Source of the DNA: an uncultured Candidatus Entotheonella sp.
Lineage (GTDB): Bacteria > Tectomicrobia > Entotheonellia > Entotheonellales > Entotheonellaceae
Direction of reading: 5' to 3'
Length of the DNA stretch: 64,000 bases
Assembly (NCBI GenBank): GCA_951828535.1
Contig: OX639990.1
Location: 545,300 to 609,299, forward strand
Below, one piece after another: positions 56,895 to 62,224 of the stretch; position 1 is the first letter of the stretch; each line of letters begins with the position of its first letter. Under the pieces are notes generated by a model. It worked only from the letters and a program-made list of their open reading frames with translations, was not told the DNA's origin and made no database searches. A program made the position numbers and the translations under genes.

Positions 56895-56924
56895 TTGGGC
56901 AGTCATCCGTCCGTGCGCTACAAT
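56895..56924 (+). promoter_or_regulatory. toxin-antitoxin promoter with palindrome over the -10
   Basis: TTGGGC (56895-56900), 18-nt spacer, TACAAT (56919-56924). The -10 lies inside TACA-A-TGTA (56919-56927), a short palindrome suited to antitoxin autorepression. Confidence 0.5.
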
Positions 56925-56957
56925 GTACCACCTTATTTTTATGCAGAGGATGAAACC

Positions 56958-57221
56958 ATGCCCGCAAATGCTGTTGTTCGTGCTCGTATTGACAAGGACC
57001 TCAAGGAGAAAGCCACCATTGTGCTGGCCAGCATTGGGTTGACGGTGTCGGATGCCTTTCGCATGATGCTGATGCGCGTGGTGGCTGAACAAGCCCTCCC
57101 GTTCGATCCCTTGGTGCCAAACGCCGAAACCATCACTGCCATGCGCGACGCCCGGCTCGGCAATGTAGGGTCTTTTGAGACTGTCGATGCGCTGATGGAA
57201 GACCTGAATGCGCCGGATTGA
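56958..57221 (+). CDS. RelB/DinJ family antitoxin
   Basis: 87-residue antitoxin. The N-terminal ribbon-helix-helix (VVRARIDKDLKEKATIVLAS, then IGLTVSDAFRMMLMRV) binds DNA. The C-terminal tail FETVDALMEDLNAPD would wrap the toxin. ATG at 56958 is preceded by AGAGGA. It overlaps the toxin gene by 14 nt, the normal arrangement for a co-regulated pair; the complex is expected to repress its own promoter. Confidence 0.9.
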   Translation: MPANAVVRARIDKDLKEKATIVLASIGLTVSDAFRMMLMRVVAEQALPFDPLVPNAETITAMRDARLGNVGSFETVDALMEDLNAPD

Positions 57222-57489
57222 GCGGACCGGGCAGTTCAAACGGGACTACAAACGCGTGCGAAGGGGCCGAAACCGCGCCGCGTTGGATACCATTCTCGTC
57301 GAGGTCCTGGAATCGCTCGTCAACGACCTGCCGCTCGAGCCGCGGCACCGCGATCACCCTTTGACGGGGGAGTGGCATGATCATCGGGACTGTCACATCA
57401 GACCCGATCTGCTCCTCATCTACCGGAAGCCCAACGGGGACGTGTTACAGTTGGTCCGCATGGGCTCTCACAGCGAATTAGGACTGTGA
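57208..57489 (+). CDS. YafQ-type RelE-superfamily mRNA interferase toxin
   Basis: 93-residue toxin of the YafQ family, which cleaves mRNA on the ribosome. Residues aligning with the YafQ active site are His50 (HRDHPLTG), His63 (RDCHIRPD), Asp67 and His88 (GSHSEL). The C-terminal Phe, important in E. coli YafQ, is replaced: the protein ends HSELGL instead of HAALFG. Length and strand order are otherwise normal. It overlaps the antitoxin gene by 14 nt. It may be weakened by the missing Phe. Confidence 0.88.
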   Translation: MRRIERTGQFKRDYKRVRRGRNRAALDTILVEVLESLVNDLPLEPRHRDHPLTGEWHDHRDCHIRPDLLLIYRKPNGDVLQLVRMGSHSELGL

Positions 57490-57523: not shown

Positions 57524-59173
57524 TCAAGGCCGGTACGCGTCGATGCCGACGGTCGCCGGGCTCGGACCGCTGGGCATCACCAGCGTCTTGGCACGGTCCG
57601 CGCCGATGACCAGAACGTAATAACGCTCGGCGCTTTCGAGAACTGGGACGGTCATCCCAAGGCGCTCCTGCTCGCTGTGGTTCAGCAGCCACTTCCAGTT
57701 GGCGGCGACGCGCGCTTCGCCCTCCAGGGGCATGTACTGGATCATCTTCCCGAGGCTGGCGTTGGCGTTGTGATGGATGAATTCCCTGGTGCCGTACTTG
57801 CTGAACCCCTGCGCGCCTACGGGCCGGGCGACGTCCGGCGGCATGAAAATGAGCCGTTCGGCGTCGTGCCGCTCGGCAAGGCTGCGGGTGCCGAAGGTGC
57901 ATCCGTAGGCAATGGTTTTCAGCAGCCCTTCGGCGCTGGTATTACCCTGATCCTGCACGTCCAACTCGCCGTCAGTGACGAAAATGCTGATAGCGCTTTC
58001 TTCCCGCCTAAAACCCCGGTCGACGTGGAACGGCTGCCACGGGCTCATGGCCTCGTTCTCGGCCAGGCAATGCACGAACTTGCGGGTCGTGCCGATGGTG
58101 TCCATGTCCATGTGGCCGGGATACCACTGGCCGATGTTGCGGAGACACAGGGAGAAGGCGCGGCCAATCGTGATGTTGACCCGGTTGTCGCGCCCCGGTC
58201 CCAGCCCGGACCTCGGATTGAGGCCGATTTCCTGAGCGATGGGGCCGTTCACCACCAGCACCGGGGCGTGCGGTGAAGTGGACATCAACAAGGACTTGCC
58301 GCCGTGCGGGCCGAGTTCCGACAACGCCTTGACCGCGGCGATGACCACCGGCATGTGTTCCGGCAGGGCGCCGGCCATGGCCGCGTTGATGGCGATCTTC
58401 TCCACCGTGGCGAGCCCGAAACCGGGCGGCATGTCGCACACCAGATGATTCGGCGGCAGACACGTGCCTTGCAACAGCGTATCGACCGCCCGGCGGGTGG
58501 CCGGGTAAAGCGGCAGGCTGTCGCCCCAATCGCGGCTCAGGAAATCCTCGTTCATGCGCAGCACCGCGGCGTAGCGGTCATCGGCGTCGTATGGATAGCG
58601 CCGCTCGGGATCGTGGACGTCGGCGCCGTTCTCGGCCTCCTGCCCACCGCTCACGAGGGCGTGGACAAGGCTGTCGATGGCCAGTTCCGTTTGCTTGACG
58701 CATTCATCCAGGGCGAGATTTCGGTAGATGCGCGGCACGGTAACGAATTTCAGATCCGGCATGGCGAAGGTTCGAGAGCTGGCGACGGCGTCTTTCTCAA
58801 AACGTCCCGAGACGATAGGGACGGCGGGCTTGCCCATCTTCTCGATCTCGATCATGTCGTGGCACATCCACGACGCGCACGTTCCTCAATCGGCGGTGGC
58901 GCCGACGACCACGTCACACTCCTCGGCGGCTTGCCTGACGATCGGCGGCGGGGCAGGGTAGTTGCCGCCGGTGTAGAAGTTGATGGTCACGTCGCTGAAC
59001 ATTTCCTGAAGCAAGGCCCCGACGCGCTTCAGGGCCACATCGCCGCCATGCGTGCCGCTCCACAGCAGCCCGACGGTTTTGTGATCCAGGCTGGCAGGCC
59101 GCGGGTTGATCGGCTGGGTCGTTAGCACGCCCCGTTGCTGGGCAACAGGATTCAATACTTCCAAGGTATACAT
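57524..59173 (-). CDS. UGSC-family selenoprotein with in-frame UGA (Sec96)
   Basis: One 549-residue gene read through a TGA at 58886-58888. Upstream, MYTLEVLNPVAQQRG to EECDVVVGATAD is the UGSC-domain start; downstream the frame continues as GTCASWMCHDMIEIEKMGKP. The TGA falls exactly on the U of the U-G-S/T-C redox motif. The two halves share one frame with no overlap or new ribosome site, and AGGAG lies 7 nt before the only good ATG. A hairpin starts 11 nt after the TGA. The rest (about 430 residues) is unassigned but rich in conserved-looking His/Asp. Probably a thiol/selenol redox enzyme. It is divergent from an enolase-superfamily gene. Confidence 0.82.
58856..58874 (-). promoter_or_regulatory. 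candidate bacterial SECIS hairpin
   Basis: In the mRNA, GTCGTGG pairs with CCACGAC around the loop ATGTG. The stem begins 11 nt after the TGA and the loop lies 18 nt after it. If the closing G-C opens, the loop starts with G, as in known bacterial SECIS elements. The hairpin lies inside the coding sequence, as expected. Confidence 0.6.
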
Positions 59174-59406
59174 GGCCACACTCCTGAAAATGAGCGGATG
59201 ATGTCCTGACAAGGCCGTTGATATTGGTCCTCGCCCTTACGGGACAGCTATCCTACGCTCGCCTCACCGGGCAATCAAACGGCCGCATGGCGCGGTGGAC
59301 GGCCACCAGGCGGCTGCTTTACAATGACGCTCCAATCCCTGACCGATCCGGTCCACCCAAACACCCGGATGGCCCAAGCCGCCGCACAATCGTCGAGGAA
59401 ACCGCC

Positions 59407-60492
59407 TTGTCTATCACACACGTTGAAACCTCTCTGTACCGCCTGCCGCTGCCGTTCGTCATGCAGGATTCCATGCACGGCAAAATGACCCACTCCGAAT
59501 TCGTCGTCGTGCGCCTGCGCGACGGCGACGGCGGGGAAGGCACCGGCTATACCTACGCCCTCAACAGCGGCAAGAGCATCGCCGCACTCATCGACGGCGA
59601 GCTTGGGCCGTTTCTGCAAGGCCGCGACGCCGACCGCATCGAGGCCATCTGGAAGGACATGTGGTGGCACGTGCACTACGCCGGACGCGGCGGCGCGGCC
59701 AGCTTCGCCATCTCGGCCATCGACATCGCGCTGTGGGACCTGAAGGCCCGCAGACTCGGCGTGCCCCTGTGGCGCCTGCTCGGCGGCCATGACCCGGACG
59801 TGCACGCCTACGCCGGCAGCATCAATTTCAATTTTTCCGTTCCCGAATTGATCGAGCAGAACCGCCAATTGGTGGACAGTGGCTTTCACGCCGTGAAAAT
59901 GCGGGTGGGCAAGGAGACGCTGCGGGAGGACATTGAGCGGGTCGGGGCAGTGCGTAAGGAAATCGGCGCCGACGTGCATCTGATGGTGGACGCCAACATG
60001 AAGTGGTCAGCCGAGGAGGCCATTCGACGCTCCCGAGCGCTGGCCGAGCACAACGTTTACTGGCTGGAGGAGCCCACCATTCCCGACGACGTCGCCGGTC
60101 ATGCTCGCATCGTGGCCGAGGGCCTGACGCCCGTCGCCGCCGGCGAGAATCTCCACACAATCTACGAATTCCAGAAGTTCATGGCCGCCAATGCCGTGTC
60201 GTTCGTCGAGCCCGACGTCACCAACTGCGGCGGCATCACGCCGTGGATGAAGGTGGCGCACCTAGCCGAAGCCCACAACCTGCCCATCACCTCGCACGGC
60301 GTCCACGACTTGCACGTCCACCTGCTGGCCGCCATTCCCAACGCCAACTACCTCGAAATCCACGGCTTCGGCGTTGAGCCTTACGTGGAAGTGCCTCTGC
60401 CCATCGTCAACGGCATGGCCCGCGCCCCGGAACGTCTTGGCCACAGCGTGGATTTCGTGTGGGACAAATTGGCGCCGCATCGGCTGAGGTGA
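59407..60492 (+). CDS. mandelate racemase/muconate-lactonizing family enzyme (enolase superfamily)
   Basis: 361-residue Mg-dependent enzyme that abstracts a proton alpha to a carboxylate (racemase or sugar-acid dehydratase type). Catalytic features are the K-x-R pair in HAVKMRVG (Lys164, Arg166), metal ligands Asp195 in MVDANMKW, Glu in WLEEPTIPDD and Glu in VAAGENLH, and a general-base His in ITSHGVHDLHVH. The start is TTG at 59407 with GAGG upstream; the open frame extends 189 nt further without homology. It is divergent from the UGSC gene. A truncated copy lies at 61918-62224. Confidence 0.88.
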   Translation: MSITHVETSLYRLPLPFVMQDSMHGKMTHSEFVVVRLRDGDGGEGTGYTYALNSGKSIAALIDGELGPFLQGRDADRIEAIWKDMWWHVHYAGRGGAASFAISAIDIALWDLKARRLGVPLWRLLGGHDPDVHAYAGSINFNFSVPELIEQNRQLVDSGFHAVKMRVGKETLREDIERVGAVRKEIGADVHLMVDANMKWSAEEAIRRSRALAEHNVYWLEEPTIPDDVAGHARIVAEGLTPVAAGENLHTIYEFQKFMAANAVSFVEPDVTNCGGITPWMKVAHLAEAHNLPITSHGVHDLHVHLLAAIPNANYLEIHGFGVEPYVEVPLPIVNGMARAPERLGHSVDFVWDKLAPHRLR

Positions 60493-60820: not shown

Positions 60821-61807
60821 TTAATTGGTTTGGAAGAGCCCACCGGCCTGCCAGTCGTACAGACCGGAAACCGTTCGCTCAAGGCCGCCGCTGACGCTGG
60901 CTTGATGGCCGCTGGCCTCATTGCCCGCACCGCCGGTGACGCTGGCATAATAGCCGCTGGCCGTGTTGTTGGAACCGCCGCTAACGCTGGCATAATCGTA
61001 GATGGCCGCGTTGAGGTAACCGCCGGTGACGCTGGCATAATCGCCGCTAGCCACGTTGTGCTGACCGCCGGTGACGCTGGCATAATCGCCGCTAGCCACG
61101 TTCTGCCGACCGCCGGTGACGCTGGCATAATCGCCGCTAGCCACGTTCTGCTGACCGCCGCTGACGCTGGCATAATCGCCGCTAGCCACGTTCTGCTGAC
61201 CGCCGCTGACGGTAGCCCGAAGACCACTGGCCTCATTGCTTTTACCGCCGATGGCGCTGGCAAAAGTACCGCTAGCCTCATTGTACTGACCGCCGCCAAC
61301 GCTGGCCCGAGAGCCGTTGGCGGTGTTGCTGCCGCCGCCGCTTACGCTGGCATACTCGCCGCTGGCCTTATTGTTTTTGCCGCCGATGACGCTGGCATAC
61401 TTGCCGCTCACCGTACTGCTGTAGCCCGCCACCAAACCGCCATAACTCGAATAACTGTGCCGAGGGCCAATCACCACATTATGCGAGCCACTGCGGGCAG
61501 GGGTGCCAACGCTCTCATTGTAGCCAATGATCAGATTGCCGACGCTATTGCTGCTAGCGGTGCTCCCCTGGCCGTTTCGCACATGCACGTTGCAGCCCTT
61601 AAAGATGACATCGTCGACCAAGCCCGCCCCCGCAGCCGTGGTCATGCAGTCCGGGATTAAGTTTAGCAGTCCGTTAATCTGGTCTTGGAGCACGGTAATC
61701 TACTCTTGCAACTCGCTCAACGTCTGCGCCGTAGCTGGCAGGACGGCCTTGAGGACGAGACTTCCGCACACCACGGTCAATACCAGGGTCTTCATAAGTC
61801 GGGTCAT
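60821..61807 (-). pseudogene. YadA-head-like repeat adhesin with in-frame amber codon
   Basis: From ATG 61807 (GGAG upstream) the gene encodes a signal peptide (MKTLVLTVVCGSLVLKAVLP, then ATAQ), then TAG at 61700-61702 (codon 36), then 292 further codons in frame. The body is about twelve 15-residue repeats of the type NVASGDYASVTGGQQ, the left-handed beta-roll repeat of trimeric autotransporter heads. There is no C-terminal membrane anchor. The TAG would be CAG (Gln) in the heptad-like LSELQE-x-ITVLQDQ. Either a recent nonsense mutation or a suppressed stop. Confidence 0.7.
61020..61203. repeat. 45-bp coding tandem repeats of the adhesin
   Basis: About four nearly identical 45-bp units containing CTGGCATAATCGCCGCTAGC, within the adhesin coding region. 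The DNA identity exceeds what protein conservation needs, which suggests recent unit duplication. Confidence 0.85.
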
Positions 61808-61917: not shown

Positions 61918-62224
61918 CCCGGCCGGCCCACGCCGAGTTCGTCGTCGCGCCCCTTCGGGACCGCGACGGGGTCGCTGAGTATAAGGTACTCCCTCAACAG
62001 CGCCAAGAGCATTGACGCACTCATCCCGCGGCGCCCACGACTTGCACGTCCACCTGCTGGCCGCCATTCCCAACGCCAACCACCTCGAAATCCACGGCTT
62101 CGGCGTTGAGCCTTACGTGGAGGTGCCTCTGCCCATCGTCAACGGCATGGCCCGCGCCCCGGAACGCCCAGCCCACAGCGTCGATTTCATCTGGGAAAAA
62201 CTGGAGCCGCATCGGCTCGGTTGA
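61918..62224 (+). pseudogene. truncated duplicate of the enolase-superfamily gene
   Basis: Two segments of the gene at 59407 are fused. A degraded early part (HAEFVV, then a frameshifted stretch matching the LNSGKSIAALI region) is joined at about 62030 to an intact C-terminal part (HDLHVHLLAAIPNANHLEIH through VDFIWEKLEPHRLG). About 240 central codons with all metal ligands are missing. The C-terminal part is nearly identical in DNA to 60301-60492, so the duplication is fairly recent. With the original copy it brackets the adhesin. Confidence 0.82.

Follow-up and report, generated by a model that had tools for sequence, protein, structure and literature searches.

The locus described here raises the question of whether two abutting minus-strand open reading frames, which share one frame, constitute a single selenoprotein gene and, if so, which reaction its product may carry out. 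It lies in a window (the whole stretch of DNA that was analyzed, 64,000 nucleotides) from an uncultured Candidatus Entotheonella sp. whose genome is a single contig of 3.62 Mb. The UGSC proteins, to which an earlier note on this DNA assigned the product, are among the most abundant selenoproteins of surveyed waters and have no assigned reaction. The statement in that note that the family lacks a settled biochemical role is correct (PMC13188914).

The gene (57524–59173, minus strand) is a frame of 549 codons running from an ATG at 59173–59171 to a stop TGA at 57526–57524, and its sole interruption is the in-frame TGA at 58888–58886, codon 96, in the context VVVGATAD-U-GTCASW. This agrees with the earlier description of two ORFs parted only by a TGA that falls on the first position of a UGSC-type motif (here U-G-T-C), and with the ribosome site ascribed to the upstream part, a Shine-Dalgarno-like AGGAG (59181–59185, minus strand) located 7 nt 5' of the ATG; as a separate ORF the downstream half could start only at an internal ATG within SWMCHD. 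The Pfam UGSC model (PF24696) matches residues 6–174 (58652–59158, minus strand; E=3.8e-28, 99.2 bits vs a gathering threshold of 25). Since this match crosses the TGA and 80 full-length homologues read through the same codon, the continuity of the frame is far beyond chance. The score against the NCBIfam equivalog NF041046 is 90.9 bits, below the cut-off of 125, which places the protein, as judged from these models, in a divergent subfamily of PF24696 outside that equivalog. A match to PF01182 (E 0.03) was judged to be due to chance, an Rfam search over the gene gave no match, and sequence searches of the PDB were equally negative, whether the query was the fusion, the UGSC domain or the GrdB profile.

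The host genome encodes the complete selenocysteine (Sec) machinery whose presence the earlier note had proposed to check, that is, selA and selB (adjacent), selD and a tRNA-Sec with anticodon UCA. Comparison with homologues, also proposed there, showed TGA at codon 96 in 70 of the 80 full-length sequences and a Cys codon (TGT or TGC) in the other 10; none ends at residue 95 or has any other codon at this site. Sec and Cys have been exchanged through at least four changes on the protein tree, and both this position (Sec or Cys) and C99 of the UxxC motif (U96-G-T-C99) are invariant in the homologues. Counted from the first base of the UGA, a bacterial SECIS-like hairpin with a stem of 7 bp (GUCGUGG / CCACGAC; 58856–58874, minus strand) starts 14 nt downstream. 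The stem is fully paired in 67 of 71 Sec genes vs 4.5 expected from synonymous shuffling, in which the protein and the codon use of each gene were held constant; as many of these 71 genes are close relatives, they do not represent 71 independent events, and the stronger point is the contrast with the Cys genes, where the same hairpin is fully paired in one of 10 (1.1 expected). Compensatory A-U changes in the stem occur in two genes. Four further UGSC proteins of the host genome each have an in-frame TGA at the same site, and a second Entotheonella genome contains an intact copy encoding a 95% identical protein. Because Sec/Cys codon exchange, hairpin, Sec machinery and the four additional TGA-bearing proteins agree, the reading of the TGA at 58886–58888 as Sec, advanced in the earlier note, holds on this comparative evidence. 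It is very improbable that translation truly stops at this TGA, or that the TGA arose by a pseudogene mutation, so that the locus would encode a peptide of 95 residues and, independently, the downstream ORF: TGA does serve as a normal stop in the host genome, and terminates this same gene, but the shared TGA in 70 homologues from several phyla with Cys in the remainder, the hairpin kept in Sec genes, the intact copy in the second genome and the fact that the second ORF could start only at an internal ATG all speak against it.

Glycine reductase and D-proline reductase employ a Sec subunit together with a substrate-activating subunit to cleave a bond reductively, and in the case of glycine reductase the electrons are provided by thioredoxin. 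The selenoprotein B of glycine/sarcosine/betaine reductase (GrdB, PF07355) resembles the UGSC proteins in several respects. Thr in place of Ser, which the earlier note reported for this member, is correct but not peculiar to it, as UGTC occurs in 50 of 50 sequences of the nearest clade (Chloroflexota, SAR202-type), with UGSC, UGGC or UGAC in other clades. UGTC is also, in the GrdB proteins examined, the GrdB motif, a point that had been missed. A profile of 27 UGSC domains aligned with a GrdB profile (hhalign) with the Sec columns in register, at a probability of 92.8 and an E value of 3.9e-7 for a single comparison. When the four UGxC motif columns were removed, the probability dropped to 36, the register was unchanged and the score (34.5) exceeded the maximum of 100 column shuffles (22.0) and that of the reversed profile (22.5). 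The kinship rests on one homologous C-terminal region and is weak once the motif columns are taken out; on these profiles the relationship of the UGSC domain to the Sec domain of GrdB appears significant, real but remote. The UGSC protein differs from GrdB and PrdB in that PF07355 matches neither the window protein nor any of the 27 UGSC rows, no GrdE- or GrdA-like gene occurs at the window locus, and its partner domain is apparently unrelated to the GrdE/PrdA subunit (probability 0.07 against a GrdE-like profile) and does not match the GrdB profile; unlike the GrdB/PrdB systems, UGSC proteins occur also in aerobes and haloarchaea.

The host genome, which is that of a sponge-symbiont type of bacterium, additionally contains three GrdB-like genes, each adjoined by a GrdE-like gene (L165:6978-9392, L166:6923-11040, L167:6163-8798). 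The Sec codon was read in two of them, one locus also has a GrdC-like gene, and the GrdE-like proteins lack the Cys of a GNC stretch present in the clostridial-type GrdE of L169. Short PrdB/GrdB-like proteins are encoded at L043:3084-4235 (plus strand) and L168:5133-6032 (minus strand) of the same genome, the former with a TGA in the motif TPT-U-PLC and with a UGSC/partner pair at a distance of about 4 kb.

The large C-terminal region noted earlier does exist, although not as a single block of about 430 residues: 453 residues follow the TGA, of which about 80 complete the UGSC domain and about 360 (residues 188–549; 57527–58612, minus strand) form a second domain, here called the partner domain. 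No Pfam or NCBIfam model matches the latter above chance in any of 50 homologues, and its invariant charged residues are D31, R151, D169 and E185 (own numbering). In 17 genomes, which were picked via fused genes, the partner was fused to or within 2.5 kb of 61 of 66 UGSC matches, in either order and without exception on the same strand. UGSC and partner domains are equally numerous in complete Chloroflexota chromosomes (2:2, 3:3, 8:8), even where some lie apart, and there are up to eight paralogous pairs per genome. Among 148 unselected Actinomycetota, the partner is present in all nine genomes with UGSC and, by itself, in one more, while both are missing from the other 138 (Fisher 1.4e-13), and 11 of 13 UGSC matches in this sample adjoin a partner. 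These distributions indicate that the partner is a separate domain and a near-obligate companion of UGSC across bacteria and haloarchaea, a constancy suggestive of a two-part reductase of wide occurrence.

Both Entotheonella genomes also have a solitary partner-domain gene with no UGSC gene in the vicinity (L046:5661-6689), and a search around the host-genome copy for an in-frame TGA of the UGSC type was negative. On two haloarchaeal plasmids, two partner paralogues flank one Cys-type UGSC gene (partner-UGSC-partner triplets; L172:7983-10645 and L173:6888-9587).

The fusion as such is not new. A UGSC/Unknown_1 fusion is reported in the GOS survey of 2008 (PMC2398784), and the earlier note missed both this precedent and the family-wide nature of the partner. 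As far as the survey's description of Unknown_1 permits comparison, that fusion and the UGSC family (PF24696, NF041046) share with the window protein the Sec-bearing domain, the UxxC motif, Sec/Cys exchange and a second fused domain; the window protein differs from the family in having UGTC for UGSC and in scoring below the NCBIfam equivalog. No report of the pairing rule, of a relationship between UGSC and GrdB or of a linkage of UGSC to thioredoxin reductase turned up in the literature searched, which covered few subscription journals.

This linkage takes several forms. An Arthrobacter plasmid carries trxB, trxA, partner and UGSC as one gene run or operon, in a Mycobacteriaceae metagenome-assembled genome a TrxB-TrxA fusion is encoded directly upstream of a fused UGSC/partner gene, divergent trxB/trxA genes adjoin the fused gene in Micromonospora, and in a Streptosporangiales genome the next gene after the fused one is TrxA-like. 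A gene for a thioredoxin reductase-like flavoprotein is adjacent to UGSC/partner in Haloterrigena and near it in Variovorax. The grd operon at L169 opens with trxB-trxA-grdE and has its trxB-trxA start in common with the Arthrobacter operon; some UGSC loci have trxB-trxA alongside, as grd does. The linkage was seen at loci of Cys forms only: TrxB occurs within 2 kb of five of 18 Cys loci vs none of about 73 Sec loci, and is absent at the window locus. Other neighbors of UGSC/partner genes belong to uptake and to CoA and organic-acid catabolism and include ABC, TRAP and tripartite transporters, CoA transferases, enoyl-CoA hydratases, dehydrogenases and lyases; a search for a conserved neighbor over 80 loci found none common to the close Chloroflexota clade. 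Near UGSC/partner pairs there are also ComA-like (phosphosulfolactate synthase) genes, namely in Entotheonella (L047:5470-6213), Arthrobacter (L174:5713-6498) and Natrinema (L171:5497-5964), a possible hint at sulfonate chemistry; as a substrate clue this linkage, seen in three phyla, was considered too thin for naming a substrate.

With regard to function, the UGSC/partner pair is most likely a reductase fed by thiols or selenols. On balance, the reading that we favor is that the Sec-containing UGSC protein, fused here to its usual partner, forms with it a soluble reductase or reductive lyase acting on a small substrate of the organic acid type in a GrdB/PrdB-like manner. In such an enzyme, the substrate would be bound by the partner domain, with the invariant Asp, Arg and Glu residues forming the substrate site; the selenol of Sec96 would attack the substrate or hold an intermediate, to be resolved by Cys99 through a selenenyl sulfide. 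The enzyme would regain its reduced state from thioredoxin/thioredoxin reductase, in keeping with the chemistry of glycine and D-proline reductase. Several points weigh against this reading: the thioredoxin linkage is confined to Cys loci, no GrdE- or GrdA-like gene accompanies the window gene, the partner shows no similarity to GrdE, the kinship with GrdB has a narrow basis, the structural matches of the partner are too weak to indicate a reaction, and the close Chloroflexota copies have no conserved neighbor. A wider proposal is held more tentatively, at slightly below an even chance: UGSC and partner may represent a third branch of the selenol-based two-component reductases of the GrdB/PrdB type, one that spread horizontally among aerobic bacteria and haloarchaea, takes its electrons from thioredoxin and serves different substrates through many paralogues per genome. 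Together, strict pairing, kinship with GrdB and thioredoxin-reductase neighbors provide a selenoprotein that was an orphan with an enzyme hypothesis that can be tested, and show which parts to co-express.

A less probable function, though one that deserves serious consideration, is redox defense, in which the protein would act as a thiol peroxidase or disulfide reductase with Sec96 and Cys99 as a thioredoxin-type couple and the partner merely as a modulator. The UxxC redox motif, which UGSC shares with thioredoxin-fold selenoproteins (Trx-like, Prx-like), is consistent with this role, as are the linkage to thioredoxin and thioredoxin reductase and the thioredoxin-like fold and redox role assumed for UGSC in earlier work, namely in the 2008 GOS survey (PMC2398784). 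The predicted fold may point elsewhere. An AlphaFold2 model of the whole protein (mean pLDDT 90.7, pTM 0.91) has a UGSC domain of five alternating beta/alpha units, with Rossmann-like structural matches at Z about 10 and Sec96 immediately before the N-terminus of a helix; this five-fold alternation of strands and helices, if the model is right, is unlike the order in thioredoxin and the thioredoxin-fold selenoproteins. Moreover, the large partner domain carries the four invariant charged residues, and substrate-specific enzymes are the better fit for genomes with as many as eight paralogous pairs, sited near genes of transport and catabolism.

It is improbable that the main chemistry is instead hydration or elimination, with a reductase-type UGSC domain joined to a partner that is a hydratase or lyase of the class I fumarase kind. 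In the model of the partner domain (pLDDT 87), class I fumarases head the Foldseek list at E 5e-4, but VIA-align gives Z of about 4 and an rmsd of 5–6, within the range of chance arrangements, TM-scores are near 0.2, and the conserved ligand set of three Cys for a cluster is absent from the partner alignment. Assignment of the partner domain as a fumarase or as a 'Toblerone' hydrolase was set aside, the fold matches being too weak for a function.

Where this copy came from can be judged from the tree. The window protein and its closest relative in the collection (the 95% identical protein, from an uncultured Candidatus Entotheonella chromosome) nest in a Chloroflexota clade whose members bear the titles SAR202, Dehalococcoidia or Chloroflexi (the joint clade has a support of 100, the nesting one of 88–94). 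Fused copies from further genera of the family to which the window belongs are 37–39% identical and placed elsewhere. The simplest reading is that the gene probably passed from Chloroflexota to Entotheonella. Plasmids also bear the UGSC/partner pair. On plasmid pFER4 of Paracoccus ferrooxidans (L175:1-14736), a UGSC gene with TGA and a partner gene lie between selA and selB, possibly a mobile unit that combines Sec use with a Sec user; the UGSC gene is annotated there as two hypothetical proteins, an example of how annotation pipelines split such genes at UGA.

Two features flank the selenoprotein gene in the window. Just downstream of it, on the opposite strand, two overlapping plus-strand ORFs (56895–57489; 108 and 93 aa) have the appearance of a RelB/RelE-type antitoxin-toxin pair. 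On the other side, a 189-bp repeat (60297–60485 and 62029–62217; 93% identity, 1.7 kb apart) corresponds to a piece of the 3' end of an enolase-type gene (59218–60492), and a gene for an SGG-type repeat protein (60821–61693, minus strand) sits between the two copies.
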